Below are positions 2,299 to 16,497 of a DNA stretch of 20,084 bases, one piece after another. A model generated the notes under the pieces. That model was not told the origin of the DNA and searched no databases. It saw only the letters and a list, made by a program, of their open reading frames with translations. Where the stretch lies: IMG/VR virus record IMGVR_UViG_3300037042_005756, positions 1-20,084 of that record; one strand, 5' to 3'. Both the position numbers and the translations under genes were made by a program. Numbering within the stretch: position 1 is the first letter of the stretch; each line of letters starts with the position of its first letter. The stretch comes from a virus.

Positions 2299-2692
2299 AA
2301 TCTGGTATTGTTTGTGAATCTTTATTTTCCCATGGGTATACTATCCATTCATTTTCATAAGCAATCTCCCAAAAGTAATTGGGTTGATAGTCAGCTGATT
2401 GTTTCCAGTGTAGAGCGGCAGTATAGATATTGTTTTCAAATTTAAATCGCTTTAATGTTCTACCTGTATCACAGATATCATCTACAACTAGAATATCACC
2501 CTCTATTGATGCTATATTAGCTTGAGCTACAAATGGAATACTTAATCTATGAGATAACATTACTGCTGGAATCAATCCTCCACGAGGTAATCCACCAACA
2601 GCCTCTAATTTAACTCCACTAGTGTGGATGCTAGCAACTATTCTGTTAACTGCTCTATCAACATCGTTCCAACTTAAAAATCGTCTATCCAT
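2270..2692 (-). CDS. Purine-type phosphoribosyltransferase
   Basis: This 140-residue protein has the type I phosphoribosyltransferase signature: a GGLPRGG loop (33-39), the PRPP-binding motif VVDDICDTGRT (69-79), and a C-terminal ENEWIVYPWE (113-122), a pattern typical of xanthine/guanine/hypoxanthine phosphoribosyltransferases. The predicted reaction is purine base plus PRPP to nucleotide monophosphate. At about 140 residues it is near the short end for the family. The stop codon of folE and this start codon share a base (TAATG), so translation is probably coupled to GTP cyclohydrolase I. That pairing suggests it feeds guanine back to the GTP pool used by FolE. Base specificity cannot be read from sequence with confidence. 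Confidence 0.82.
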   Translation of the reverse strand: MDRRFLSWNDVDRAVNRIVASIHTSGVKLEAVGGLPRGGLIPAVMLSHRLSIPFVAQANIASIEGDILVVDDICDTGRTLKRFKFENNIYTAALHWKQSADYQPNYFWEIAYENEWIVYPWENKDSQTIPDYERSILPSR

Positions 2693-3417
2693 TATTTATA
2701 TCCTTCCATATTTAGTTTTAACATTTCAATTACCTCCATCTTAGCTGTTCTACTATGATCAGCAAATACACCACTTACTTCACTTGTAACCATACTAGCG
2801 CCAAAGTGTTTTACGCCTCTACAACTAACACAGTTGTGGTATGAGTGAATTACTACCATTACGTTTTCAGTTTCAGCTACAGCTTGAATAGCATTATGTA
2901 CAGCTACTGTAAGTTGTTCTTGAATAGCACCTCTACGAGCAAAATGTTCTACAATACGATTCAATTTACTTAAACCTACTACTTTACCATCTTCACCTGG
3001 TATATAAGCGATATGTGCTTTACCTAAAATAGCCTGATGATGATGTGAGCACATACTAACAATTGGAATATCTCTTTCTAATACAATACCTGCGTAACCA
3101 TCACTTGGAAATGCAGTAATGTCAGTTGGTAACTCATATCTACCTCTCCATAAATCAAACACATAGGCTTTAGCTACACGACGAGGTGTTTCCATACTAT
3201 TAGGATCATTTTCCCAATCAACACCAAGTGCTGTTAAAAACTGTCCATATGCTTTTTCAGCATTAGCTACAATACCCCATTTTTCATCATCACTTAAAGA
3301 ACGATGTTTACCATCCTCAAGTAATGACTTTAAATGAGTTGAAATACCATTAGCAAAACCTGCTTGTGCTGTTTCTAATGTTTCTACATTAGCTATTTTC
3401 CTGCGTTTGTTCTCCAT
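2692..3417 (-). CDS. folE: GTP cyclohydrolase I
   Basis: This enzyme converts GTP to 7,8-dihydroneopterin triphosphate, the first step of 7-deazaguanine synthesis. The 241-residue length matches the family. Zinc ligands are visible as Cys123 and His126 in MCSHHHQ and Cys196 in HNCVSCRGV. Other conserved blocks are DPNSMETPRRVAKAY (71-85) and VVGLSKLNRIVEHFARR (146-162). It is a canonical FolE rather than the FolE2 type. The start overlaps the small membrane protein upstream by 29 bases, and the stop overlaps the phosphoribosyltransferase start by one. The same cluster holds queD, queE, queC and dpdA but no other folate or pterin genes, so the role in deazaguanine synthesis is well supported by context. 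Confidence 0.95.
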   Translation of the reverse strand: MENKRRKIANVETLETAQAGFANGISTHLKSLLEDGKHRSLSDDEKWGIVANAEKAYGQFLTALGVDWENDPNSMETPRRVAKAYVFDLWRGRYELPTDITAFPSDGYAGIVLERDIPIVSMCSHHHQAILGKAHIAYIPGEDGKVVGLSKLNRIVEHFARRGAIQEQLTVAVHNAIQAVAETENVMVVIHSYHNCVSCRGVKHFGASMVTSEVSGVFADHSRTAKMEVIEMLKLNMEGYK

Positions 3418-3940: not shown

Positions 3941-4774
3941 TTATACATTTAATGTTTTATTCCAAGCTGAGATATGTAAACGAGTCAGTCCTCTAAATTT
4001 ATATATTTTAGCCATTTCTAAAACGAAATTAGTACGCTCATGGAAATCATCTTGATCATCTAAACCAGGCATACACACTACATTTTTAAGAGGTATATTG
4101 AATGGTTCTACAAAGTCACGGAATAATTCCTTAACATCATCTTCTGTGCTGATAACAAATTTAAATTGGTAGTTTCCATGTTGCATGATTCTTTTAATAG
4201 CATCAGGTACAATACGTTGTTTAGCTGTCATACCTGAATTAGCCAACTTAGGTGAGCAGTTAATTTGGTTTAAGTAACTAAATAAATCATCTTCAATTAC
4301 TACAGTACCATTAGTTTCAATTTCATTATAAACTTGCCAGCTGTAATCTCCATTTAAATTCCAATATTTAAAGAAATTAACAATAGCCTCTTGATGCCCT
4401 TTAATTGTAGGTTCACCACCAGTCCAAATAATATGAATAACACCATTTAAGATATCATCGTAGATGCCTTGTTCTTTCCATCTATCAATTAGATATTGAA
4501 ACTCTTTATCTTCACCTCTCCATAACCACTGGCTTGTAGAATCACAAGTCCAAGTTGCTTTACCCTCAGCATGTAAATCACCAACAAATATTTCTCCGTC
4601 TTCTAGCTTTTGTTCTTTAGCTAATGCATTTGCAAACTTACGAGACATACCACAAGTTAGGTTACAAATACCTAAACGAACAAAGTAAGAGGGCACTCCT
4701 GAGGAGATACCCTCACCTTGGACAGAGTAGAAGTCACTAGAAATTAATAATTTATTTGGATCAATTTTACTCAT
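3941..4774 (-). CDS. queE: 7-carboxy-7-deazaguanine synthase (radical SAM), variant cluster motif
   Basis: QueE rearranges 6-carboxytetrahydropterin to 7-carboxy-7-deazaguanine using a 4Fe-4S cluster and SAM. Family features are FYSVQGEG (15-22), SYFVRLGICNLTC (29-41) and WTGGEPT, plus an NEIETNGT block and SPKLANSG. The usual CxxxCxxC cluster motif is split: Cys37 and Cys41 are in place, but the third Cys equivalent is Cys77 in WTCDST, after an insertion of 35 residues rich in charged amino acids. At 277 residues the protein is longer than many QueE (about 210-245), consistent with the insertion. Its stop overlaps the following region by one base gap, and its start overlaps queC's end by 4 bases (ATGA). 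Confidence 0.9.
   Translation of the reverse strand: MSKIDPNKLLISSDFYSVQGEGISSGVPSYFVRLGICNLTCGMSRKFANALAKEQKLEDGEIFVGDLHAEGKATWTCDSTSQWLWRGEDKEFQYLIDRWKEQGIYDDILNGVIHIIWTGGEPTIKGHQEAIVNFFKYWNLNGDYSWQVYNEIETNGTVVIEDDLFSYLNQINCSPKLANSGMTAKQRIVPDAIKRIMQHGNYQFKFVISTEDDVKELFRDFVEPFNIPLKNVVCMPGLDDQDDFHERTNFVLEMAKIYKFRGLTRLHISAWNKTLNV
4689..4714 (-). other. GC-rich hairpin inside queE coding sequence
   Basis: Nested inverted repeats lie within queE codons 21-29: outer arms GAGGG (4689-4693) and CCCTC (4710-4714), inner arms CTCC (4696-4699) and GGAG (4703-4706), with a 3-base loop and a small internal loop. In an otherwise AT-rich gene this makes a locally stable mRNA hairpin near the start of the message. 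Function is unknown; it could slow translation or simply reflect the Gly/Pro codons there. Confidence 0.45.
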
Positions 4775-5616
4775 ATGTTTGTTTTTTTATGTTCTAATAA
4801 TACTTTTTCAACATGTTCTTTAGCTTTTTCCCATTTAACAGGACCAGTTTCATCAGCGTAAGCTACAGGATCAGGACGATCAAGTTTTAAAAATGCTTCA
4901 ATACGTTCTACAGAAGAAGCTGATTTATAATCTGAATACCAAATTGGTTTGCCACTAAATGAGTCTATAATTAAAATTGGTTTATAAGATGTGTTAGTAC
5001 GTTTATATACTTCATCAAAATCAAATCCTAATTTTTTACAACATACTTCTCCATCTTTTAAAATATCAAATTTATTAATTGATAAGTATGGAGTATATAC
5101 ACTGATTAATTCACTATCCCAATTACCTGTTTTAAATGCTTCAAAATCAACATCACGAAACTCTTGTCTACAATCAGGATAGATAGCATGGTCACCAGCA
5201 TGAATACCCATTGCAATAGCAACCTCTTGTTTTTCATCTTTAGTAGCAATTGATAATGCTACTGCTTGAATAATAGAACTAAAAATCTTATTACGATTAG
5301 GTACTACTGTTTCTTTCATGTTAGCTTGTTCATAATGTCCTTCAGGAACATCTTTCCCACCACTAACAAGCGCTGAATTTAATAATTCACTTAATCCTTC
5401 AAGTTTAATTACTTGATAGCGTACCATAGGTACTTTAGCTTTAAATAACTTGTCATTAACATACTCAATTAACTGTTGAGCACGTTCAAGTTCAACTCTA
5501 TGTTTTTGTCCATAATCAAATGATAACGCTGTAACTTCATAGCCATTGGCAAGTAGATGAAGCAGCAATGAGGAACTATCCATTCCTCCACTTAATGATA
5601 ATACTGCTTGTTTCAT
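4771..5616 (-). CDS. queC: 7-cyano-7-deazaguanine synthase lacking its zinc site
   Basis: QueC uses ATP and ammonia to turn 7-carboxy-7-deazaguanine into preQ0. The PP-loop SGGMDSS (9-15) is intact, as are FDYGQKHRVEL (33-43), VVPNRNKIF (104-112), MGIHAGDH (136-143) and YPDCRQEF (146-153), all strong family marks. The normal C-terminal zinc site with four Cys (SCY..., then CxxCxxC before ERxEAF) is recognisable in outline but every ligand is changed: Ser210, Asp229, Ser232 and Ser235 occupy the four positions, the last before VERIEAF. The length of 281 is somewhat above the usual 220-235, partly from an insertion around 213-228 and a longer C-terminus. The gene overlaps queE and dpdA by 4 bases each. 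Confidence 0.9.
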   Translation of the reverse strand: MKQAVLSLSGGMDSSSLLLHLLANGYEVTALSFDYGQKHRVELERAQQLIEYVNDKLFKAKVPMVRYQVIKLEGLSELLNSALVSGGKDVPEGHYEQANMKETVVPNRNKIFSSIIQAVALSIATKDEKQEVAIAMGIHAGDHAIYPDCRQEFRDVDFEAFKTGNWDSELISVYTPYLSINKFDILKDGEVCCKKLGFDFDEVYKRTNTSYKPILIIDSFSGKPIWYSDYKSASSVERIEAFLKLDRPDPVAYADETGPVKWEKAKEHVEKVLLEHKKTNI

Positions 5617-6398
5617 TTTATATATTGTTTAAATTTTTCAACATTAAAGATAATATTATCCATTCGCTCAGTCAAATCTACTTCAAATAGTTCTTCAATT
5701 TTTGTTTTTGGTTTATATTCAATTCCGTTGTCTCCATATCTAACACCTTCAGATCCTACAATAATTGGATTTGATGTGTCAACTGATTTAATCCATTCAA
5801 AATTAGTATAAGCCATAAACTCTTGAGGTAATGAACATCCTAATAAATGATGATAAACATGTTTATATACTGTATCTTTTTCAACTAAACGTCTAATCAA
5901 TTCAATTCTACCTAACATTTGAGCATATACTGGTTTATGGTTAGGATAAAATTCAGTATAAGCTATACTTGAATGATTAAATGCGATATGTTTATACCCT
6001 ATATCAATCAAAGTTTGATATGTAGTAATCAACTCACCCATATTTTTACCTTGACATACAGCCATAAACTGAGTGTCTTCAGGTACTTTATCTTTATAGT
6101 TAAACATCCAATGTTTAGCATTTCTTAAAGTAGCATTTGAATCATTCCATTCATCAGGTACTACAAATATGTCAGGTTTAACTAACCACATTTTATCAAA
6201 TAAATCTTCAGTTGTATGTTTTACACCTTCAAATAATCCATTATCCATAATAATGAATCTTTGATCTAACCTAGCTTTTTGAAAATATAATCTATAACGA
6301 TCATATTTATCTATTAAATGTGGAAGACAATAATCTATATCATTCCACTCATAACTGTGATTCATTAATTCAATAGGTAACTCATGACTTACTTTCAT
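5613..6398 (-). CDS. dpdA: DpdA/TGT-like DNA guanine transglycosylase
   Basis: This 261-residue protein matches the TIM-barrel core of tRNA-guanine transglycosylase paralogues found in phages. Landmarks in order are FIIMDNGLFE (48-57, the base-binding Asp52), FVVPDEW (78-84, Asp82), MAVCQGKN (112-119, the VQGG-like loop), KHIAFNH (136-142), HHLLGCSLP (183-191, matching HLxGxG) and SVDTSNP (205-211) with Asp207 at the nucleophile position. The C-terminal zinc domain of tRNA TGT is absent, as in phage DpdA proteins. The predicted reaction swaps guanine in DNA for a 7-deazaguanine base. The short length suits a phage DpdA2-like form, though the subfamily needs a phylogeny. Overlap with queC (4 bases) and nearness to queD support the role. 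Confidence 0.88.
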   Translation of the reverse strand: MKVSHELPIELMNHSYEWNDIDYCLPHLIDKYDRYRLYFQKARLDQRFIIMDNGLFEGVKHTTEDLFDKMWLVKPDIFVVPDEWNDSNATLRNAKHWMFNYKDKVPEDTQFMAVCQGKNMGELITTYQTLIDIGYKHIAFNHSSIAYTEFYPNHKPVYAQMLGRIELIRRLVEKDTVYKHVYHHLLGCSLPQEFMAYTNFEWIKSVDTSNPIIVGSEGVRYGDNGIEYKPKTKIEELFEVDLTERMDNIIFNVEKFKQYIK

Positions 6399-6403
6399 AT
6401 TGT

Positions 6404-6616
6404 TTATTTATAATGGTGTAATTTCTTTTTCCATTTATCAATTTGTGTCTGGCAATACCACTTTCCTAACCAACTAGAAGCATTAAAATATTTTTTCTCC
6501 CATTCCTCTATTTTTTTAAATATAGGTCTATTAGCTTTATTAATGATGTCTATATCATAATAGCTATTTTCTTCTAGCATTGCTTTTTCCCATTGTTCTT
6601 TTTTATTATCCTTCAT
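6404..6616 (-). CDS. Small charged protein of unknown function
   Basis: This 70-residue, Lys-, Glu- and Trp-rich protein sits between queD and dpdA. Five Trp residues and alternating charges suggest a helical, possibly nucleic-acid- or protein-binding peptide. The C-terminal WKKKLHHYK is basic. Its start lies 11 bases inside the queD end and its stop is 5 bases before dpdA, so it is part of the operon. No family is recognised; a helper of the transglycosylase is possible only by position. Confidence 0.6.
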   Translation of the reverse strand: MKDNKKEQWEKAMLEENSYYDIDIINKANRPIFKKIEEWEKKYFNASSWLGKWYCQTQIDKWKKKLHHYK

Positions 6617-7070
6617 AGATAGCTGAGTTTTTATTATTTTCCATAAATTCTACTCTTGTAACTTTAACTCTATTATTAGTTTCTTCTTGAACAAATGTGT
6701 TAATTTTTTCAAAAATATATTTAGCAAATTGTTCTGCTCCTACAGCTGGTAATACTCTAGTTTGAGCTAAACCATGCTCACCCATTGCTTTAAAACCAGC
6801 TAAATATGGATCATCTTCAGCTACAACTAATGTATGATCAAATGTATAATCCATCCATTCTTTAGGATTCATACCATCAATTTTACCCTTAGCTCTTTTC
6901 ATTCCTCCAAAATCCCATACCCAATTTCTTTCATCTAATTCACCTGCAAACCATACTCTAAATGAAACACCATATCCATGTAAGAAACGACAATGTGTTC
7001 CTTCTGCTTTCCATTGACGGAATACACAACTATATCCATCAAATAATTTAGTTGATAAAAATTTACTCAT
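6606..7070 (-). CDS. queD: 6-carboxytetrahydropterin synthase, divergent zinc ligands
   Basis: QueD makes 6-carboxy-5,6,7,8-tetrahydropterin from dihydroneopterin triphosphate. The 154-residue protein has the T-fold marks: catalytic Cys27 in THCRFLHG (25-32), NWVWDFGGMK (49-58) matching the VxDFxxLK strand, FDHT with His79, PAVGAEQFAKYIF (108-120) matching the PTxExxA helix, and Glu144 in FMENNKNSAIY. Two of the three zinc histidines seen in classical QueD are not obvious: the first falls in CVFRQW and the HGH becomes His31-Gly-Tyr33, with His26 a possible substitute ligand. I believe a related subfamily with FRQW and HGY occurs elsewhere, so this looks like a subfamily trait. The start overlaps the upstream gene by 4 bases. 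Confidence 0.85.
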   Translation of the reverse strand: MSKFLSTKLFDGYSCVFRQWKAEGTHCRFLHGYGVSFRVWFAGELDERNWVWDFGGMKRAKGKIDGMNPKEWMDYTFDHTLVVAEDDPYLAGFKAMGEHGLAQTRVLPAVGAEQFAKYIFEKINTFVQEETNNRVKVTRVEFMENNKNSAIYEG

Positions 7071-7558
7071 ATAATATATTTTTTAGGTCTTCCTCTACGT
7101 TTTTGTTTTGCTCTGAAATTATAAGTAGCTTTTATTAGGTCATAAAGCTCTCTTAATGTGCCTTCAAAAGACTCCATTTTATTATCTAACTCTTCATCTT
7201 CAATTTCAAATAAACCAGTTATAGCTTTTTTATATAACTCTAAACGTTGTGGTTCATCTTTTTCAAAATCCTTCATTAAACGTCTATAACGTTCTCTATA
7301 TATAGTTTGCGCCTCATGTCGTTTAACTGGGTCATTAATATCTCCTGTTTTTTCTTCCATCTCAAGTAAAGCATATTGTGCTTGCCAATAATATGATGAA
7401 AAGTCAAAATCTCCATTATCAATCCTAGCATGTACAGCATCTTTAGATGATAATGAAGACTTATCTTTAAATTTTCGCCACCAGAAAAACTGGTTATATT
7501 TGAGTGGTTGTAGTTTACTTAACTCTCTATTAATTATTTCTTTTGTGTGTATTATCAT
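7067..7558 (-). CDS. Unknown helical protein with AT-hook-like C-terminus
   Basis: This 163-residue, mostly helical, highly charged protein belongs to no family I recognise. An aromatic stretch (FFWWRKF, 24-30) is followed by long Glu/Lys/Arg-rich helices (60-145). The last 12 residues hold KRRGRPKK, in which the Arg-Gly-Arg-Pro core (155-158) is the classic AT-hook that binds the minor groove of AT-rich DNA. The gene overlaps queD by 4 bases and the DUF5522-like gene by 29. A DNA-binding partner of the modification or replication genes is a reasonable guess, not shown. Confidence 0.6.
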   Translation of the reverse strand: MIIHTKEIINRELSKLQPLKYNQFFWWRKFKDKSSLSSKDAVHARIDNGDFDFSSYYWQAQYALLEMEEKTGDINDPVKRHEAQTIYRERYRRLMKDFEKDEPQRLELYKKAITGLFEIEDEELDNKMESFEGTLRELYDLIKATYNFRAKQKRRGRPKKYII

Positions 7559-7823
7559 AACCTTTATTATTAAATATATCTATTTCTTCCTTGGTCACCA
7601 AATATTTGTCCTGTACATTTTGATTACCATGTTTATGTTTTGGTTCAAACGGACAATGTCTACAGCCATTACCACAACATTGGCCACGTTCAATATGGAA
7701 TTGAGCGGTGAATATCACACGCTCACCTTCCATATAATAATGTATATCTTCTTTAAACAACTTCACAAGCACCTCCAGCACATGCTGCTTGGTCTTGTAA
7801 GTTAGTTTCATCACTAAATTCAA
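7530..7823 (-). CDS. DUF5522-like Cys-rich small protein
   Basis: The diagnostic block is YYMEGERVIFTAQFHIERG followed by a Cys cluster with Cys49, Cys50, Cys54 and Cys57 (CCGNGCRHCPF), which matches the small DUF5522 family widespread in Bacteroidota. The Cys spacing suggests metal binding. Function is unknown. The start is uncertain. The longest frame begins at 7823 and overlaps the ribonucleotide reductase end by 71 bases; a Met at 7811 overlaps by 59; a Met at 7733 avoids overlap but would cut the conserved DxxYY strand. A TTG near the reductase stop is a further option. The end overlaps the AT-hook gene by 29 bases. Confidence 0.72.
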   Translation of the reverse strand: MNLVMKLTYKTKQHVLEVLVKLFKEDIHYYMEGERVIFTAQFHIERGQCCGNGCRHCPFEPKHKHGNQNVQDKYLVTKEEIDIFNNKGYDNTHKRNN

Positions 7824-9606
7824 CTACTTTACTTAAATCAAGAGCATGTAAATGTTTAACACGTTCATTAAATTGTTCTTCAGTAATTGTCTCAAATGGA
7901 GCTTGAGTATATGTTCCTAAATCCTCTGGTAGGAATGATAATGCGGTAAAATACTCTTTATTTTCCCATAACCACTCTCCTACAGTTGACCATTCTTCTT
8001 GTTTAATGTTTACTGTAGCTGATACGTTATGCATATTACTACCTTTTCTATGACCTGGTTTAATCCACTCTTTATTAAATTTCTTAATACGTTCAAGTAA
8101 TTCAACAGCTGTTTCTTTAGGACGTACAATAGCGTTTTTAGGAGCACGCTGAGGAATAGTTACAATTGCTTGAATGTTTGGTTTAAAGAAATCATCTTCT
8201 AACAATTCAGGATGATGAATTGATAAGTGAGTGTATAATGCCTCGTTCTTACCAATACGGATTCTTCTTAAATAGAAGTCATCATGCCAAGCGTGAATAC
8301 CACTTGATGTACCTAATACTAATGATGTAGTACCTGATGGTTTAACACATGTAACACGAGCTGCTTTATTAATGCCAATTACCTCAGCTAAACGAGCGTT
8401 TTCTTCAGTAGCAATTTTAGCTGCTTCTTTTAAACTAAAATTTAATACAGCACCTGAGGCAATACCAGTCATTCCGATACCTAATAATGCTTCTTTTTCA
8501 GTTGTTTTCTTCCATACATCTCTTAGATAATGGAAATCAGTATATGATGCTTGTAATGTACCAATGAATGCTGCTGCTTTAACTCTAGCATTTAAATCCT
8601 CTTGTGATTCAACTGTTGAGGCATTTACCTCACATAGATTACAGAATTGATTTGGTTTCAAGTTAATTTCAGCACATGGGTTAGTACCAGCATCTTTATC
8701 GTTTGAGAAGATAAATCCTGGTTCACCTGAATTACTTAATTCGATTTTCTTCCATAAATTAAGAAACACATCTTTTTCAATCTTAGATTTAATTAATACA
8801 GCTGTATTATTAGCTCTTCCACGTTGTGGATTATCTTCCCACCATGATCCAAACTTACATGTTAACATTTCCTCATCATCTAAATTAAATAATGCAATGA
8901 GGGCAGCGCGACGAATACCACCTGATAATACTGCATCAGCTAAATGACAGATGATATCATGACATTCAAGTGATGTGAGTTGTTCACCATCTTTTTTTCT
9001 GTCTAATATTGCTTGTACGTGTACTAAAGCTAATTTAAGTGGTTCTGGACCAGGTGCTTTACCACCTACAGTAATTAATTGAGCACCTTTAGGACGAATA
9101 TCTCTAAAATCAAATAATGGAAGTGCACCACCACGTAAATAAGATTTAACTAATACTTTAACAGCATCAGCCCATCCTTCAATACTATCACCTACAAGGT
9201 AACGTTTTGATTTTAATGGCTTTCTTACAACAGGTAACTTTTCAATATGATGTTTTTGAACACTATATCCTACCCCACAACCAGAAAGAAGTAAAAACAT
9301 TATTTCACTGAAAGAAGCGATGTCATCAATAGGCAAATAAGAGCAATTAAATATACGAGCATTATTGATGTCAACGGGCTTACCTGCAAATTGCATCGAT
9401 CGCATCGATGGTAATACTTTTTTATTGTAAACAAATTTATAAGCTTCTTCAATTTCATTTTTTAAATTTGGGAATTTTTTTAAGTGCATTTCTTTGTTTC
9501 GATCTACTAATTCACTCCATGTTTCTCTTCTGTTTAATTCTGGTCTGAACTTGCTATACTTCATGTATGTGGTTATTTCAGATAGAATTTCTTGTGTTAC
9601 GTCCAT
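7753..9606 (-). CDS. nrdJ: Adenosylcobalamin-dependent (class II) ribonucleotide reductase, monomeric type
   Basis: This enzyme reduces ribonucleotides to deoxyribonucleotides using a B12-generated thiyl radical. Cysteines line up with Lactobacillus leichmannii RTPR: Cys88 in FNCSY (like C119), Cys311 in NPCAEINL (like thiyl Cys408) and Cys322 in FCNL (like C419), with the same 11-residue spacing, plus a C-terminal redox pair Cys609 and Cys614. Other marks are LSGCGVGYSV (107-116), a glycine-rich KAPGPEPL block and VTCVKPSGTTSLV. At 617 residues it is shorter than RTPR (about 740). No B12-binding accessory domain or second subunit is visible. The enzyme works without oxygen and needs host or environmental cobalamin. 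It is preceded by a 79-base spacer with a hairpin, the longest gap in the replication block. Confidence 0.92.
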   Translation of the reverse strand: MDVTQEILSEITTYMKYSKFRPELNRRETWSELVDRNKEMHLKKFPNLKNEIEEAYKFVYNKKVLPSMRSMQFAGKPVDINNARIFNCSYLPIDDIASFSEIMFLLLSGCGVGYSVQKHHIEKLPVVRKPLKSKRYLVGDSIEGWADAVKVLVKSYLRGGALPLFDFRDIRPKGAQLITVGGKAPGPEPLKLALVHVQAILDRKKDGEQLTSLECHDIICHLADAVLSGGIRRAALIALFNLDDEEMLTCKFGSWWEDNPQRGRANNTAVLIKSKIEKDVFLNLWKKIELSNSGEPGFIFSNDKDAGTNPCAEINLKPNQFCNLCEVNASTVESQEDLNARVKAAAFIGTLQASYTDFHYLRDVWKKTTEKEALLGIGMTGIASGAVLNFSLKEAAKIATEENARLAEVIGINKAARVTCVKPSGTTSLVLGTSSGIHAWHDDFYLRRIRIGKNEALYTHLSIHHPELLEDDFFKPNIQAIVTIPQRAPKNAIVRPKETAVELLERIKKFNKEWIKPGHRKGSNMHNVSATVNIKQEEWSTVGEWLWENKEYFTALSFLPEDLGTYTQAPFETITEEQFNERVKHLHALDLSKVVEFSDETNLQDQAACAGGACEVV

Positions 9607-9645
9607 TTTGGTTTATATATTTAAAAGTTAAGTGTACAATATCAT

Positions 9646-9661
9646 GCTATCTCTCGACAGC
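9646..9661. other. GNRA-type hairpin ahead of the ribonucleotide reductase gene
   Basis: Arms GCTATC (9646-9651) and GACAGC (9656-9661) form a 6-bp stem. On the minus-strand RNA the loop is GAGA, a GNRA tetraloop, and one pair is a G-U wobble. It lies 40 bases upstream of the reductase start codon, so it may be a leader structure affecting translation or mRNA stability. Read on the plus strand it is followed by a T-rich run (9663-9673), which would resemble an intrinsic terminator for antisense transcription. Confidence 0.5.
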
Positions 9662-9685
9662 CTTTCTTTTTTTATGTTTTGATTT

Positions 9686-9949
9686 TTAAAGTAAGCGACT
9701 ATCTAATTCAGTCATCTGGAGATATAAAACAAAATCTTCAAATATGTCTTTAGGTACACCTTTAAGTGACAAAGCATGTTCTTGAAGAAGTGATTCTGAA
9801 ATCCTGTCGCTAGTTCCCTCTAATAATAATGGTTTAAAACCAGTAAAAACTTCATTAATAGTTTTTGTTTCATCAACATCACCAAAATCATCATTGTCTT
9901 GAAGATATTGAATCATCAATTCTTCAATTTTGGTTTTAGAGTATTCCAT
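9686..9949 (-). CDS. Small acidic protein of unknown function
   Basis: This 87-residue acidic protein has no Cys or membrane segment. It is probably helical, with a negative DNDDFGDVDETK stretch (18-29) and a regular hydrophobic pattern towards the C-terminus. Its start lies 14 bases inside the end of the DUF6884-like gene, which supports expression as a pair. No domain is recognised. Confidence 0.6.
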   Translation of the reverse strand: MEYSKTKIEELMIQYLQDNDDFGDVDETKTINEVFTGFKPLLLEGTSDRISESLLQEHALSLKGVPKDIFEDFVLYLQMTELDSRLL

Positions 9950-10424
9950 TTTTATAGAGTTTTTTTACTTCCTTAATTATTTTTGTTGTCAACTTAATAA
10001 TAGCTTCTTTCAATTTCTGAAGTAATGCTTTCTTTTGTTGACCAATGCGTAGACCCTCAAATGGAACTTCAACGTTCTTCATATGGGGTTCTAAATATTG
10101 ACGATATGCATTTCCTGCTAAAATAACAAACTTATCTTTATCAAGATTATAACCTTTTTGTTTTAATTGACCCAATACAGTCTCAGCCCATTTCTCACGT
10201 TCTGGAGCTGGCATTTCTTTCAATGTCTTATTGTATGGATCAATTTTAGCACGTAATGGTACTAAATGATACTTAGCGGAAATAATATATATATCATTTG
10301 GGCTAGTAAGTTTTTTGGCGTACTCCAATTGTTTTTTAAACAAATCAGAATTATAAAGTTCTTCAGCAGGAGCTGCTTGACTTTCTTTACCCGCGGAACA
10401 TGATACTAATACAACCTTACTCAT
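9936..10424 (-). CDS. DUF6884-like (YaaA-related) protein
   Basis: The 162-residue protein has the pattern of the DUF6884 family: VVLVSCSAGKE (4-14) with the Ser-Cys-Ser motif, APAEELYNSDLFKKQ (18-32), DIYIISAKYHLVPL (44-57), IDPYNKTL (61-68) and a late VILAGNAYRQYLEP (99-112). The family occurs in phages and bacteria, and its biochemical role is not established to my knowledge; it looks distantly like YaaA (DUF328). The C-terminus (130-162) is a Lys-rich helix that could bind nucleic acid. The gene sits between helicase and ribonucleotide reductase, a few kilobases upstream of the deazaguanine genes. Confidence 0.75.
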   Translation of the reverse strand: MSKVVLVSCSAGKESQAAPAEELYNSDLFKKQLEYAKKLTSPNDIYIISAKYHLVPLRAKIDPYNKTLKEMPAPEREKWAETVLGQLKQKGYNLDKDKFVILAGNAYRQYLEPHMKNVEVPFEGLRIGQQKKALLQKLKEAIIKLTTKIIKEVKKLYKNGIL

Positions 10425-10445: not shown

Positions 10446-11816
10446 TTAACTATTATTATTAAGTTCAAAAAATTTCTTTTTAAGTATATCCCTATCTACA
10501 GAGTCAAAATTTTCATTTAGTTTAACTGGTCTTTCTCTTTCAAGTGTTTCTTCATCAAGTTCATCAGTGTCAATTTGTATATGACCTGTTGATGTATCTA
10601 TGACAGCTGAGTAAGTAACACCATCCATACCATATCGATTTTTCATAATATGGAATCTACCTGTACCACCTGCTTTATCTTGACGTCGACGTGAAATTGA
10701 CATTGCAAAATCTGTAATCATCATTTTATTATAAGAACCAGCGGCTTTATCACCCTCAATAATATTGTCATTAGCACCTGCTCTATTAACCTGACTCACA
10801 GACCAAATTGGAACATTTAATTCACGTGCTAAACCTTTAGTAGCTACATAAACATCATCAATTTCTTCCTTACGTTCTTTACTTGTTCTATTAGCACGTA
10901 ACAAGTCAACATAGTCAATAATTACTAAGTCAGGCATTTGATCTAAGTCTCTACATTTTTGAATATGCGCTTCAATAGTACTTATAGTTGCTTTACCTGT
11001 CGGATATTCTTTAATCACCAATCTACCAGGTAGATTAGTAATAACCTTTTCAACGTCTGTTCTATGGTTTTGAATGTTATTTACTGATATGTTAGTGAAA
11101 CAAGCATCATATCTTTTACCAACATATGCTTCACTTAACTCAAGTGTATAGTGATTAACATTAAAACCAGCTTGTACAGCTGCTGCTCCTAGAGCAATTA
11201 ATGACCAACTCTTACCACCACCTGGTCCTCCAAATATTAGTCCAAAATCACCTCCACCTAAACCACCTTGTAACAGTTGGTTAATACCAGGCCAAGGTGT
11301 AGCGACTGGATTTCTATATTCTTCACGATATCTGTCTTCAACATCCTTTTCATATTCATGACCTAAATTCTTATCCATACCTGCTTTTAATGCTGAATCA
11401 ATTAGATGTCTAATATCATCATACATTCCAGATTGTAATAGATCTACAGATGTTAATAGTGCTTTCTTTAATTGTTGGTTTTTGCAAAAGTTACTAAACT
11501 CAGCTTCAACATACTCAGCATCTTCATTTGTTGCTTTATATGCTTCTTTTAATTGTTCTACTACTGATGTTTTTAATACTTCATTATCAATTTTCTTTAC
11601 CTCAATATGTAATGTATCAAGTGTAGGTGTAGCATGCCACTTATCAAAATACTTAATAATTGTTTCTACTAACCATTGATGAGCTTGGTTATCAAAATAT
11701 TCTGGTGTAGCTACATCACGAATATTAAGTAGGAATTTTTTATTCTTTAAAAGCGAGCTAATAACCTTGGTTTGAAAATTCAAACCATATTGATTTAATT
11801 TGCTGAATGCAACCAT
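10446..11816 (-). CDS. Replicative DNA helicase, DnaB/gp41-like
   Basis: This 456-residue ring helicase of the DnaB superfamily would unwind the replication fork. The N-terminal helical domain (1-150) fits the DnaB primase-interaction domain. The RecA-like core has Walker A GGPGGGKS (196-203), a TLELSE segment (224-229) corresponding to H1a, Walker B LVIIDYVDLL (297-306, Asp301), and VPIWSVSQVNRAG (335-347) as the H3 motif with the sensor Gln. A short disordered acidic region precedes the C-terminus. It lies directly downstream of exonuclease, recombinase and gp32-like genes. A separate primase is not in the window. Confidence 0.92.
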   Translation of the reverse strand: MVAFSKLNQYGLNFQTKVISSLLKNKKFLLNIRDVATPEYFDNQAHQWLVETIIKYFDKWHATPTLDTLHIEVKKIDNEVLKTSVVEQLKEAYKATNEDAEYVEAEFSNFCKNQQLKKALLTSVDLLQSGMYDDIRHLIDSALKAGMDKNLGHEYEKDVEDRYREEYRNPVATPWPGINQLLQGGLGGGDFGLIFGGPGGGKSWSLIALGAAAVQAGFNVNHYTLELSEAYVGKRYDACFTNISVNNIQNHRTDVEKVITNLPGRLVIKEYPTGKATISTIEAHIQKCRDLDQMPDLVIIDYVDLLRANRTSKERKEEIDDVYVATKGLARELNVPIWSVSQVNRAGANDNIIEGDKAAGSYNKMMITDFAMSISRRRQDKAGGTGRFHIMKNRYGMDGVTYSAVIDTSTGHIQIDTDELDEETLERERPVKLNENFDSVDRDILKKKFFELNNNS

Positions 11817-11819
11817 AAC

Positions 11820-12866
11820 TTATTTTAATTTATAAACTTGAAGATAAGAAAAAATTTCGTTAAGCCAAATCTCTGTGTTAGGTATGGAGTTTTGAAGATT
11901 ATCTTCGTTATATAACTTTAGGAAATGTAATTTATCTAATTTATTAGGTTCATTAGTTAATACTTGTTCTATTTCTTCTAAACTGTCTTCTGATAAGTCA
12001 ATATTAGATAAATCCATTAATTGTTGATTGATAAGTAGTTGTTTTTTAAAATTAACTATATCACCATACAATCCATGTTCATTAACTAACTCTTCAGACT
12101 TAGTAAATATACTATCTAATGTAACTATAAGATTACCTTCTAGTTCTGGAAATAATTTAAATAGCTTTTTAGGTCCTAATCCTTTAACACCAGGTATATT
12201 ATCTGAATCATCACCCATTAATATTTTTTTATTAATAAAGTTTTGAGGATATAAACCATACTCTTCCTTTACTAATTTAGGTGTATAGAATTTCTTTTTA
12301 ATAGGTGAATATATTGTCACTTTATCATTTACTAATTGCATAAAGTCTTGGTCAGCAGACATTATATATACTTCACCATCTAATTTATTTGTTATATAAC
12401 CTATAACATCATCAGCTTCTACTTTATCGATAGATAATAAATCAACAGGTAAACACTTTAAATACTCTACTAAACGTAACATTTGATTTTCAATAGAGGC
12501 TGATTCATCTTCTTTACCATCAAAACCATCCCAATTAGTTATACGTTGTAGTTTTCTATGTGCTTTATATTCTGGATATAGATTCTTTTTATTGGTAGTA
12601 CTACCATTACCATCAAATATTAGAATAACTCTTGTAGGCTTAATATGACGAATTGCAAAACCAATCGATTTTAAGAACCCAGTGAGCCCACCGATGTGGG
12701 CTCCACTTGGATTCATATGGTTGATCATGGCAAAACTTCTTAAAAAGGTATTCATTGAGTCTACTAAGAGTACCTTACTGTTTAAATACAAGGCTTCTTG
12801 CTTAGTATTCTTAATATTGGATAGTATATCTTTAAACGTCTTGTTCATCGTCATTATCGATTTCAA
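11820..12866 (-). CDS. 5'-3' exonuclease / flap endonuclease (T4 RNase H-like)
   Basis: This 348-residue PIN/FEN-type nuclease would remove RNA primers and flaps on the lagging strand. Metal-binding acids appear in the usual order: Asp36 (LLVDSMN), Asp85 (LIFDGNG), Glu150/Asp152/Asp153 (VEADD), Asp172/Asp174 (ADQD) and Asp219/Asp220/Asp222 (GDDSDN). A helix-hairpin-helix follows (IPGVKGLGPKK, 224-234). The longest frame overlaps the recombinase end by 35 bases; an internal Met at residue 7 would shorten the overlap to 17. The gene contains a remarkable stable hairpin over codons 51-64. Length and motif order fit T4 RNase H and the polymerase I 5' nuclease domain. Confidence 0.9.
   Translation of the reverse strand: MKSIMTMNKTFKDILSNIKNTKQEALYLNSKVLLVDSMNTFLRSFAMINHMNPSGAHIGGLTGFLKSIGFAIRHIKPTRVILIFDGNGSTTNKKNLYPEYKAHRKLQRITNWDGFDGKEDESASIENQMLRLVEYLKCLPVDLLSIDKVEADDVIGYITNKLDGEVYIMSADQDFMQLVNDKVTIYSPIKKKFYTPKLVKEEYGLYPQNFINKKILMGDDSDNIPGVKGLGPKKLFKLFPELEGNLIVTLDSIFTKSEELVNEHGLYGDIVNFKKQLLINQQLMDLSNIDLSEDSLEEIEQVLTNEPNKLDKLHFLKLYNEDNLQNSIPNTEIWLNEIFSYLQVYKLK
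12675..12714 (-). other. Long stable hairpin inside the exonuclease gene
   Basis: A GC-rich inverted repeat lies inside an AT-rich gene. The inner arms AGCCCAC and GTGGGCT (7 bp) close a 4-base loop at 12692-12695. Pairing extends outward through GTG/CAC, CCA/TGG and GAA/TTC, with two single-base bulges and one position that is a U-G wobble on the minus-strand RNA but a C-A mismatch on the plus strand. About 17 pairs form in total on the coding-strand transcript. It is not followed by a U run, so it is not an intrinsic terminator. Confidence 0.75.
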
Positions 12867-13941
12867 TCATTGGAGATATCTTACTACTTTCTTCCCACTC
12901 ACTATTATCCTCAGTAACCTTTATCTCATCAATTTTTACTCCCTCACCAAACCATTCATGAGCATGGGCTGCTTTATAAGCTTTCTCATCATCTTTGTCA
13001 TCTGGAATGAATCCATGAGGTGTAACAATTACTGTTGATGTGGTAGCGATTCCACAATCAGCATGAATTTTATCGATAGCGATCTTAGTACGTTTAGCAA
13101 ATTCTACTTTCTTACCCTTATGTTGAGCGTGAATCTTACTTGTACCACTATTTGTAACATTACCAAATGTAATTACAATTGAGGCGTCCCAATACATTGT
13201 ATTACCACCTTTATTAGTCATACGAGGTTGACTCATAGGAGTTAAAGCTGGTTGAACACCTGTTTTATTAATTACAAAGAATGTGTTAGTAAATTGATAT
13301 GATTCTTTACGTGATAGTGGAATTTTCTGATTGATAAAATTACCAAACTGTGTAGCCATTGCTCCAGCATTCCACATTGGATTATTTTTACCTTGTTCAA
13401 TACTTAAATCACATGGTATAGAACCTACTGAATCCCATAAGAATAATAAATCATGAGGTAAGTTACCTTTCTTTTGTTCATCTAAAATGTCAGCCATAAA
13501 TGCTGCTACATCCTCAATTGAATTAAGAGTTGATCTATCAACATATAGAAAAAAACCTTTGTAATTTATTACTTCACCTGTAGCTTCATCAGCTTCAGCT
13601 TCACATTGAAAGCCCATTTTTTGAGCATGAGCGAAATCCCATTTCATCTCAGTAATGATAAACACCGGTAGAATGCCCATTTTCTGAGCATTCACCGCTG
13701 TTTCAATCATTAATGTTGTTTTACCTGTATCCGAGCCGCCTCTAGCTATGGTAATATGTCCCATAGGCACGCCTGGTATTGAGAGAGCGTCTTGTACTGC
13801 AGGTGAGAATGGAATCCACTTTTGGGTTTTAAAGTTAGACGATTGGTCTAGCTTTTTAGTTTTCTTGAACTTGTCAAGATCAAATGTACCCTTAATTGCT
13901 TGTGATACACTTGCATTTACACTTTTAGCGGATTTTGCCAT
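12832..13941 (-). CDS. RecA/UvsX-like recombinase
   Basis: This 369-residue RecA-family ATPase would form filaments on ssDNA and drive strand exchange and recombination-dependent replication. The Walker A loop is ARGGSDTGKTT (66-76). VFIITEMKWDF follows (core Glu near 98), then a Walker B-like strand LLFLWDSVGSIP, and an MTNKGGNTMYWDASIV stretch corresponding to loop L2 and the conserved core strand. The C-terminus is acidic (EIDNDDEQDV), as in RecA and UvsX, where such tails modulate binding. The neighbouring gp32-like protein 5 bases upstream and the nuclease overlapping downstream form a compact replication/recombination set. Confidence 0.9.
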   Translation of the reverse strand: MAKSAKSVNASVSQAIKGTFDLDKFKKTKKLDQSSNFKTQKWIPFSPAVQDALSIPGVPMGHITIARGGSDTGKTTLMIETAVNAQKMGILPVFIITEMKWDFAHAQKMGFQCEAEADEATGEVINYKGFFLYVDRSTLNSIEDVAAFMADILDEQKKGNLPHDLLFLWDSVGSIPCDLSIEQGKNNPMWNAGAMATQFGNFINQKIPLSRKESYQFTNTFFVINKTGVQPALTPMSQPRMTNKGGNTMYWDASIVITFGNVTNSGTSKIHAQHKGKKVEFAKRTKIAIDKIHADCGIATTSTVIVTPHGFIPDDKDDEKAYKAAHAHEWFGEGVKIDEIKVTEDNSEWEESSKISPMIEIDNDDEQDV

Positions 13942-13946
13942 ATTAA

Positions 13947-14750
13947 TTACTTGTTAAAAAGTTCATCAAATTCATCTTCATCAAACCCTTTTTTCTTAGT
14001 GTTAAGGGTATAGTTAGCCTTAGGAGCTTCTTGTACTGGTGTTTCAGTAACTTCTTCAGTTGTTTCTTCACCATTGTCCTCAGATGGTTCTAACCATTCC
14101 ATTAACATAGTCTTCATTTCATCAAACTCATACTTTTTATAGAGTGATAAAACATCAGGCTGTTCACTAATCCATTTCTTGATAACTTCATTGTCTTCAG
14201 TCAATGGGCTAGTTTTTGGTTTAATACGAATAGATGATTTGTTGAACTTAGTACCTGTAACTTCAGGACCAACTGTATCAACTGTTAAATCTCTACCTTC
14301 CATAATGTCGGTGTAGTCTCCGATGTCCTCATCCTCAGCAATACCTAATAATTCAAGATACATTTCCTTACCAAATTGCCACATGCGAACACCTTTTTCT
14401 TCTTCGCCACGTACAATGACAGGAACAAATACCCTCATTTTAGGTTCAATCTTCTTAGCTAATGACCAATTTTCTTTGTCACTAGTTTTACGAAGTTGCT
14501 GTGCAAACTCAACAATTGGATCTTTTTCTCCAAAGTTAGTTAATGCTAACATGGTTTTGTTTCCAATACCATAATGGAACATCACTTCTCTGAATGGATT
14601 TGCTTTGTTAAGTTTAGATGGAACAATACGAATCACTGATTTGCCAACAGGTGGAACCCAGAAATTCTTGGCGCGGTCATCTTTGTTACCGCCGCCTTTA
14701 CCTTTGTTTTGCAACGATTGCATACGTTGCTTGATAGCTTGTAAATCCAT
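13947..14750 (-). CDS. Single-stranded DNA-binding protein, gp32-like
   Basis: This 267-residue protein has the three-part plan of T4 gp32: a basic, Gln/Lys/Gly-rich N-terminus (1-30) for cooperative self-association, an OB-fold core including FWVPPVGKSVIRIVPSK (30-46) and the aromatic/basic strands around VRMWQFGKEMYLELL, and a long acidic tail (about 225-267, ending DEDEFDELFNK) that normally recruits partner proteins. The Cys/His zinc site of T4 gp32 is absent, as in several distant gp32 homologues. A hairpin lies 34 bases upstream of the start codon and may be an autogenous control site. The gene heads the recombinase-nuclease-helicase run. Confidence 0.88.
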   Translation of the reverse strand: MDLQAIKQRMQSLQNKGKGGGNKDDRAKNFWVPPVGKSVIRIVPSKLNKANPFREVMFHYGIGNKTMLALTNFGEKDPIVEFAQQLRKTSDKENWSLAKKIEPKMRVFVPVIVRGEEEKGVRMWQFGKEMYLELLGIAEDEDIGDYTDIMEGRDLTVDTVGPEVTGTKFNKSSIRIKPKTSPLTEDNEVIKKWISEQPDVLSLYKKYEFDEMKTMLMEWLEPSEDNGEETTEEVTETPVQEAPKANYTLNTKKKGFDEDEFDELFNK

Positions 14751-14783: not shown

Positions 14784-14806
14784 AAGTTAAGCCGAAGGCC
14801 AAACTT
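14784..14806 (-). promoter_or_regulatory. Leader hairpin upstream of the gp32-like gene
   Basis: Arms AAGTT (14784-14788) plus GCC (14791-14793) pair with GGC (14797-14799) plus AACTT (14802-14806), enclosing a 3-base loop. One G-U pair and one mismatch lie between the two stem parts. It overlaps the stop codon of the upstream gene and ends 34 bases before the gp32-like ATG, and the spacer is unstructured and A/U-rich. T4 gp32 represses its own mRNA through a leader structure at a similar distance; whether this one does so is inference. No U run follows, so a terminator role is unlikely. Confidence 0.45.
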
Positions 14807-15230
14807 AGAGATTGATAATCTTATAGATAGTTGTTTCCAACTTTCTAAGATCAGGACCATTAGTTAATAAGATAGTGTTCTTATAATCAGTCCATTCAAC
14901 TTTATAACTAGGATCAGCATAACCATTATTTAATGTTTTGATTAAAGTATTCAACGCATTAATAGTATATAATGTGTTTGACTCTTTCTTGCGGTGTAAC
15001 AATATAGTATTAGGTAATACAGAAGTTGTACTCATATTACCTGGATCAATATTATATGTACAGATAAATTCATCACTATCCTTAGACTCTAAAATAAAAA
15101 TTTTATTGAATAAGATAGAATAACGAGATGTAATAACCTCAATTGTTTTTTCTATGTCTTCTTTCTTTGAGAAAGTTGCAAAAAGCTTATTAGCCATTTC
15201 TTCAGCCGTTAACAGTATTTCGTTCGTCAT
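14805..15230 (-). CDS. Unknown protein between polymerase and gp32-like genes
   Basis: This 141-residue protein has mixed alpha/beta composition, with no Cys pairs that suggest metal binding and no membrane segment. It has an N-terminal helix (TAEEMANKLFATFSKKEDIEKTIEVI), a central beta-rich part (ILFNKIFILESK, EFICTYNI) and a C-terminal WTDYKNTILLTNG then LRKLETTIYKIINL. It lies 7 bases after the polymerase gene and its stop lies in the stem of the gp32 leader hairpin. T4 relatives place replication or transcription accessory proteins (gp59, gp33) next to gene 32, but I see no sequence basis to assign either. Confidence 0.65.
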   Translation of the reverse strand: MTNEILLTAEEMANKLFATFSKKEDIEKTIEVITSRYSILFNKIFILESKDSDEFICTYNIDPGNMSTTSVLPNTILLHRKKESNTLYTINALNTLIKTLNNGYADPSYKVEWTDYKNTILLTNGPDLRKLETTIYKIINL

Positions 15231-15237
15231 AAATATG

Positions 15238-16497
15238 TTATTTTTTTATTAAAGCACCATAGTTTTCGCCAATACTCATGCGAGTTGGAAAACCATCAGC
15301 TTCTAATTCTTGTTTAATTTTTGGTAATAGTTTAATATCTTCTTTAGCTACATCCAGTAATATTGAGTCATATGTGTATAATACTATTTTAGTTTTTTTA
15401 CCATATAGTAGTTTTAATACACGTTGTAATGTTATTGTGTTATAATATGTTTCGTAAGCCTGGATTAGATAGCTTAATATTTTATTTTTATTTGGTTCTT
15501 TTATTTGACCAGCCCATATATTAGGGCCACTAGGTAATTTTAAATGGTTAGTATGTTTAAATTCTTTCCATTGTTCATCTAACCACTCATTTAATTTACT
15601 AAAAAATGGAAACCATGCATATTCATCTCTAATACCACCATATATGTTTTGAAACATTATTTCTTTAGGTATTTCATCATATGGTTCAATCTCAAATGTA
15701 TAACCAATTGCTTTAGCAATGATGTGGGGGTGGTAAGCACTATAATCAAATTCAACAAATACATAATTATTTGGTTCAAATGATTCACGTGCGCCGTCCT
15801 TAGGTAAAGCGGCGAAATTAACGCCATTAAATGCGTTTGAAGGACGAGTAGTTGTATTATATAAATTATATTGTGTATAAACAGTATTCCCGTAAATCGA
15901 ATTATCTTTCCAAGTTAATTCAAAATGTTTATTAAACTTACGTGGATCAATACCTATACCATTTTTCTCAATTTGATAAAATACTTCAGTGTAATCAAAA
16001 TTTAAAAATAAATTATCACCATGCCATTTAGAAAAATATAATTTTTCATTTAAATAATTGTATATATTTTCCCATTTCTCATAATGTTTAGGAATAGGAA
16101 TGAGTGTATTTAATTCATTTATATAATACTTGTCATGATTAAAATCAATATGTACTTTAGTGTCATATTCTGACTCATCAACATAACCATTAAAATTTAT
16201 ATCAATTAAATTATCACCAGGTAAAAAATATAAATGAAATTTCTTATCTAAAACATAGACAGTATCAATACCACGTATGAATTGTCTAACTATTTCCCAA
16301 TCTAATTTAAATGCTTCACTATGGTCTATAGGTAATATATAACCTTTTTCTCCATCATGATAATATACTAAACATGGTTTAGTTAAAGATGGATGACGAT
16401 TATCATTTGTTGTAATAATATTGACAAAACATTTGTTTGATTCTGATTTGTCAAATAGATATTTTAGTTGTTCTTCTGTTTCAACAATGTAATACAT
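15238..16497 (-). CDS. Reduced, divergent family-A DNA polymerase
   Basis: This is a 419-residue protein, against about 700 or more for T7 gp5 and 600 for Klenow. The pre-motif A block (TRPSNAFNGVNFAALPKDG, 217-235, then ARESFEP) is strongly family A. Motif A is FDYSAYHPHIIA (250-261) with catalytic Asp251; His256 stands where the steric-gate Glu normally is. Motif B is KEIMFQNIYGG (278-288), keeping Lys, Phe and Tyr-Gly but with Asp274 where the first Arg is expected. Motif C is LYTYDSILLD (373-382), with Tyr-Asp-Ser replacing His-Asp-Glu and Asp377 kept. The N-terminal about 110 residues look like a remnant exonuclease fold with NIITT (26-30) in place of DTETT. Thumb and fingers are shortened. 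Confidence 0.82.
   Translation of the reverse strand: MYYIVETEEQLKYLFDKSESNKCFVNIITTNDNRHPSLTKPCLVYYHDGEKGYILPIDHSEAFKLDWEIVRQFIRGIDTVYVLDKKFHLYFLPGDNLIDINFNGYVDESEYDTKVHIDFNHDKYYINELNTLIPIPKHYEKWENIYNYLNEKLYFSKWHGDNLFLNFDYTEVFYQIEKNGIGIDPRKFNKHFELTWKDNSIYGNTVYTQYNLYNTTTRPSNAFNGVNFAALPKDGARESFEPNNYVFVEFDYSAYHPHIIAKAIGYTFEIEPYDEIPKEIMFQNIYGGIRDEYAWFPFFSKLNEWLDEQWKEFKHTNHLKLPSGPNIWAGQIKEPNKNKILSYLIQAYETYYNTITLQRVLKLLYGKKTKIVLYTYDSILLDVAKEDIKLLPKIKQELEADGFPTRMSIGENYGALIKK

Follow-up and report, generated by a model that had tools for sequence, protein, structure and literature searches.

A thumb-truncated family-A DNA polymerase of the divPolA1 group, with an invariant histidine at the sugar-gate position, in a phage replication cassette

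The stretch of viral DNA analyzed here (the window; 20,084 nucleotides) carries a small DNA polymerase gene on its minus strand, and a set of replication and recombination genes lies downstream of it. The features that bear on the polymerase are as follows, with the values for profile matches in brackets.

15238..16497, minus strand: mini family-A DNA polymerase, divPolA1 family, 419 aa (AlphaFold2 model and homology)
15721..15747, minus strand: motif A of the polymerase, residues 251-259 (DYSAYHPHI), gate residue His256
15637..15675, minus strand: motif B, residues 275-287 (EIPKEIMFQNIYG), with Lys278, Phe282 and Tyr286 kept
15361..15378, minus strand: motif C, residues 374-379 (YTYDSI), YD[SA] replacing His-Asp-Glu
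14805..15230, minus strand: conserved 141-aa companion ORF, candidate partner of the mini-polymerase (158/158 loci)
13947..14750, minus strand: gp32-like SSB (PF08804, 3.4e-12; PHROG SSB, 2.9e-21)
12832..13941, minus strand: UvsX/RecA-like recombinase (PF00154, 3.4e-8; PHROG UvsX, 1.6e-17)
11820..12866, minus strand: FEN-type 5'-3' exonuclease (PF02739, 5.7e-32; PF01367, 2.4e-10)
10446..11816, minus strand: DnaB-type (gp41-like) replicative helicase (PF03796, 1.2e-18; PHROG, 4.1e-75)

The first-pass annotation of this DNA had described the polymerase as a 419-residue miniature with rewritten motifs, and its reading of the sequence holds on every point. The ORF encodes 419 residues, its thumb and fingers are shortened and its exonuclease domain has decayed; the protein divides into a dead exonuclease-like region (residues ~1-125), a stunted thumb, and palm and fingers (~200-419). 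Motif A reads D251-Y-S-A-Y-H256-P-H, with histidine in place of the steric-gate Glu, and motif B reads D274-x-x-x-K278-x-x-x-F282-x-x-x-Y286-G, with Asp for the first motif-B Arg at residue 274 (the position of Klenow Arg754). Motif C is Y376-D377-S378. An N-terminal strand, FVNIITT, replaces the DTETT of proofreading PolA enzymes (AYDTETT in the regular PolA of Flavobacterium phage immuto), and with it the exonuclease acids are gone.

A simple database search places this protein poorly, given that single-sequence searches of Pfam, PDB and NCBIfam with the window protein alone returned no polymerase match. Weak matches to a PHROG polymerase family (E 7.8e-4) and to TraI_2_C (E 0.16) were not relied on. 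The immuto homolog scores 42.7 bits against PF00476 (cut-off 34.3), whereas the window protein has no match to that family, and a profile of the whole family matches Klenow with E 3.9e-6. In the profile alignment, Klenow chain positions 234-325 (~90 thumb residues) face family positions 190-196 (~5), leaving a thumb ~85 residues shorter than Klenow's. The spacing between E177 and T216 is 39 in 100 of 116 members, and the window's close relatives have 10-18 fewer residues between motifs A and B than other members. Structure prediction, which the first-pass annotation had suggested as a check, gave a Klenow-like fold with most of the thumb missing (AlphaFold2, pLDDT 93.7, pTM 0.91; input alignment of 54 rows, with three phage-collection rows left out). 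The Foldseek matches listed are all family-A polymerases, namely Pol theta, Pol nu, Klenow, Taq and apicoplast Pol, with E values between 1e-14 and 4e-16 for Klenow, Taq and Pol theta (Pol theta 8efc, E 3.7e-16; Klenow 1d8y, TM 0.75 by query length). The right-hand fold with motifs A, B and C is present in the model and, together with homology to immuto gp001, bears out the family-A assignment made from the sequence. The usual, though not universal, motif-A Glu, Arg at the start of motif B and His-Asp-Glu motif C are absent throughout the members, and we therefore file the window protein under the divergent branch divPolA1 rather than under canonical PolA.

When 57 members that are 30-91% identical to the window protein are aligned, residues R218, D251, H256, K278, F282, Y286, Q346 and D377 are invariant; the catalytic aspartates and motif-B lysine that had been noted as retained (D251, D377 and K278) are thus kept in 57/57. 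Residue 274 varies in this alignment, and the exonuclease positions drift, positions 26, 28 and 88 being variable or hydrophobic. The gate histidine is present in 116 of 116 distinct sequences, while adjacent motif-A residues vary freely. In the same 116 sequences motif C is YDS (101) or YDA (15), with Y376 and D377 invariant. dN/dS values against close relatives are 0.10-0.29, pointing to purifying selection on the mini-polymerase. Judged from these alignments, the motif pattern is far beyond chance, and the invariance of the histidine shows that position 256 is under strong constraint.

By tblastn, the window protein is 34.7% identical over 93% to immuto gp001 (E 3e-59), 30% identical to a protein of Microcystis phage Mel-JY01 and 32% identical to an ORF of an uncultured phage of 484 kb. 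In IMG/VR, one scan found 124 stretches encoding the mini-polymerase and a second at least 589. The divPolA1 family was named by Yutin et al. (2024, Virol J 21:200; PMC11348598), with immuto as the leading example and gp001 as a named member; in the portion of that paper available to us, divPolA1 proteins are reported to have a truncated thumb, an inactivated exonuclease and conserved palm residues, and their genomes to carry conserved replication genes downstream as well as a regular DNAP (family A, B or C). The window protein has the truncated thumb, replaced exonuclease acids and palm residues D251 and D377, and conserved replication genes lie downstream of it. It is a member of this already described branch of divergent family-A DNA polymerases, which occurs in T4-like phages of the 'far-T4' type such as immuto, and not a new kind. 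Relative to the set in the available text of PMC11348598, the window member comes from a metagenomic fragment and is ~35% identical to immuto, and Mel-JY01 and the 484-kb phage fall outside the set listed there. That portion of the text says nothing of the 141-aa companion, the sugar-gate replacement or YD[SA] as motif C, and we found no measured activity of any divPolA1 protein in the literature searched.

Comparison with better known polymerases shows both what is kept and what is lost. The mini-polymerase shares with Klenow (E. coli Pol I) the palm/fingers fold, the Arg before motif A, the Lys, Phe and Tyr of motif B and the two catalytic Asp, but has His for Glu710, Asp for Arg754 and Tyr-Asp-Ser for His-Asp-Glu. 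It further differs from E. coli Pol I in the thumb deletion of ~85 residues, in the loss of the exonuclease acids and in having FEN as a separate nearby gene. FEN activity is fused to PolA in bacterial Pol I, and Taq-type Pol I keeps an exonuclease-dead domain as a scaffold beside its active polymerase. The mini-polymerase resembles Taq in keeping such a domain, and Taq structures are among its fold matches; unlike the mini-polymerase, Taq has canonical motifs and an intact thumb, is fused to FEN and is its cell's repair and Okazaki polymerase. PMC11348598 also describes divPolA2 (Vibrio phage 1.063.O and barbaviruses), likewise a divergent extra phage PolA without an exonuclease. However, divPolA2 has an unrelated N-terminal globular domain where the window protein has a decayed exonuclease-like one, and it keeps Glu in motif A (YDFKAFET) and has FDEV as motif C. 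Single-sequence hhalign, which was uninformative against both divPolA2 and the immuto PolA, gave no significant match between the window protein and divPolA2.

The gene order of mini-polymerase, 141-aa ORF, SSB, UvsX, FEN and helicase recurs in representative loci with identities as low as 30%; in the 484-kb phage, UvsX falls below threshold. The 141-aa ORF lies just downstream of the mini-polymerase in all 158 loci that reach far enough; the 11 loci that lack it are short extracts or stop at, or shortly after, the polymerase gene. It is found in the same six phage records as the mini-polymerase. Among distant members the 141-aa protein is better conserved than the polymerase (45-67% versus 30-53%), with a core of TIL.HRKK..NTLYTINALN.LI..LN.G. 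It matches no known family, and a PDB fold search with its AlphaFold2 model (pLDDT 87) gave weak matches only, none at E <= 0.001. Six loci (L016, L030, L045, L072, L127 and L128) have ~600-700 extra bases between the two ORFs, an inserted element or gene.

The window itself holds no second polymerase. Contig G011, which is syntenic with it (91% nucleotide identity over 10 kb) and whose mini-polymerase is 90% identical to the window's, encodes at 7136-9724 a complete 862-aa PolB (PF03104 exonuclease domain plus PF00136) that is closest to RB69 gp43. Base 15213 of G011 corresponds to base 1 of the window, which puts this PolB outside the window, ~5.5 kb past its left edge; farther on lies a 545-aa ORF that, read from its start, we take to be GroEL. 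Further contigs with the mini-polymerase (G002, G003, G004, G008, G009, G018, G020-G023, G025 and G026) also have a PolB, as do Mel-JY01 and the 484-kb phage, and the regular polymerase of immuto, gp199, is a PolA of 777 aa that has both a polymerase and an exonuclease domain. Besides the mini-polymerase, a full-size polymerase is present in seven of the eight records longer than 100 kb; the remaining one, G019 (111 kb), may be a fragment. Each regular polymerase that was examined has an exonuclease domain of its own, and in a check for a split replicase, a separate RNase_T-type exonuclease was absent from 12 of 13 relatives. Given that relatives carry a full-size proofreading replicase (in nearly all of them a PolB of T4 type, in immuto a PolA), the mini-polymerase is most likely the phage's second polymerase. 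This phage is itself predicted, from its relatives, to encode a PolB outside the window, ~5-6 kb past its left end; the T4/RB69 gp43 type would then be a companion from a different family. These data indicate that T4-like phages here carry both a replicase and a stripped-down PolA, with no replacement of the replicase.

The first-pass annotation had proposed that the mini-polymerase may be the replicative enzyme, had remarked that its T4-like neighbors usually work with a family-B polymerase, and had named a complete PolA or PolB elsewhere in the genome as evidence against its proposal. Such a polymerase is what the relatives carry, and the complete exonuclease-bearing PolB of the near-identical, syntenic G011 leaves the replicase proposal unsupported; the family-B partner that seemed to be missing sits, in relatives, beyond the window edge. 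As for the second polymerase or DnaQ-like exonuclease that it had considered worth looking for, the polymerase was found in relatives and not in the 20-kb window, and the exonuclease search came up empty in the 12 relatives noted above. What survives of the replicase idea is a version in which the mini-polymerase replicates without proofreading and the regular PolB or PolA is used for repair. The mini-polymerase does sit in the conserved replication cassette beside helicase and SSB, and the regular DNAP of relatives lies elsewhere, near GroEL-type chaperonins. However, in the relatives PolB is a complete gp43 of T4/RB69 type whose exonuclease motifs are intact, the search for a separate RNase_T-type exonuclease found none in 12 of 13 relatives, and an enzyme that lacks proofreading and most of the DNA-gripping thumb is an unlikely replicase for a genome of ~150 kb. 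We consider this version improbable. With the regular DNAP near chaperonins and divPolA1 in the replication module, the 2024 authors leave the roles of the two open (PMC11348598).

Based on these data, we propose, with a probability of about 60%, that the divPolA1 protein is an active second polymerase that would serve as a low-processivity helper within the SSB/UvsX/FEN/helicase cassette, beside a full-size replicase. Its gene neighborhood makes an accessory role, in short gap filling or strand extension beside PolB, the most likely one. The adjoining FEN nuclease represents the activity that is fused in bacterial Pol I, suggesting Pol I-like gap filling by the mini-polymerase together with this neighbor; alternatively, the mini-polymerase may extend 3' ends generated by UvsX-driven recombination. 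With the thumb lost, the enzyme is expected to be poorly processive unless this is made up for by another factor or by the 141-aa protein, which may hold the mini-polymerase on DNA. In this reading the bulky His256, lying beside the invariant Tyr286, is probably the sugar gate and would not admit ribonucleotides. A more elaborate scheme, a two-subunit polymerase in which the 141-aa protein replaces thumb or clamp and which, with a histidine sugar gate, carries out lagging-strand or recombination synthesis beside PolB, seems to us possible but rather unlikely. Two features deserve following up: the invariant histidine gate and the 141-aa protein that constantly accompanies the polymerase.

Other roles for an active enzyme fit parts of the evidence. 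A translesion or repair polymerase, exonuclease-dead and with a loose active site, would bypass lesions or extend mismatched or recombination ends in the manner of Pol theta or Pol nu. The lost exonuclease acids, the changed gate and motif-B Arg, the presence of Pol theta and Pol nu among the top structural matches and UvsX in the same cassette agree with such a role, but Foldseek ranks Klenow and Taq almost equally and so does not single out Pol theta, the mini-polymerase is shorter than Klenow throughout, and the constant linkage to helicase and FEN fits replication too; we regard this role as unlikely, though deserving of thought. Still less probable, in our view, is a ribonucleotide-tolerant or primer-making enzyme in which His256 relaxes sugar discrimination, so that RNA-containing primers are extended or made. 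The Pol I gate Glu is replaced in every member, and the position matters, since poor growth is noted for E. coli mutated at Pol I residue E710 (PMC13136892). However, immuto has a separate DnaG-type primase, and Tyr286 is invariant, the O-helix Tyr that in another phage PolA is treated as a sugar-discriminating residue (PMC8599892). With a bulky histidine and an invariant O-helix Tyr, the change from Glu to His alone is no reason to expect ribonucleotide use. We found no description of a histidine sugar gate in family A in the literature that could be searched. A histidine steric gate has a precedent in PolD, which we do not use as evidence. Finally, the many rewritten motif positions and stunted thumb could mark a catalytically dead scaffold of polymerase origin, but this is very improbable when both metal-binding Asp, the motif-B Lys, Phe and Tyr, Arg218 and Gln346 are unchanged in 57/57 members spanning 30-91% identity.

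Several further observations concern polymerases and other genes. Three types of polymerase seem to coexist in the genome of the 484-kb phage (LR756508.1, W02; locus L086): besides the mini-polymerase it encodes a PolC-type frame (DNA_pol3_alpha) and a PolB that is divided over two frames. PolB also seems split into frames of ~590 and ~300 aa in G018 (93355-95419) and G008 (39566-41439), possibly a split gp43 or an insertion. At locus L095 a 243-aa ORF (331-1062) directly after PolB is a sliding clamp candidate by position; it has no Pfam or PDB match and falls in PHROG 12062 (function unknown), and in the search for the T4 clamp (PF02916) the control gave no match. In the window, 9936-10424 encodes a DUF6884 protein (E 5e-43) of unknown function. 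The ORFs at 2692-3417, 3941-5616, 5613-6398 and 6606-7070 are probable 7-deazaguanine DNA modification genes; the set includes Pfam matches to GTP cyclohydrolase I, QueC and PTPS/QueD-like proteins and, by resemblance to immuto genes, QueE-like and possible DpdA-like ORFs. The ribonucleotide reductase at 7753-9606 (PHROG 367, 6e-134; weak PF21995 insertion domain) looks B12-dependent (class II), and immuto has NrdA/NrdF in its place.
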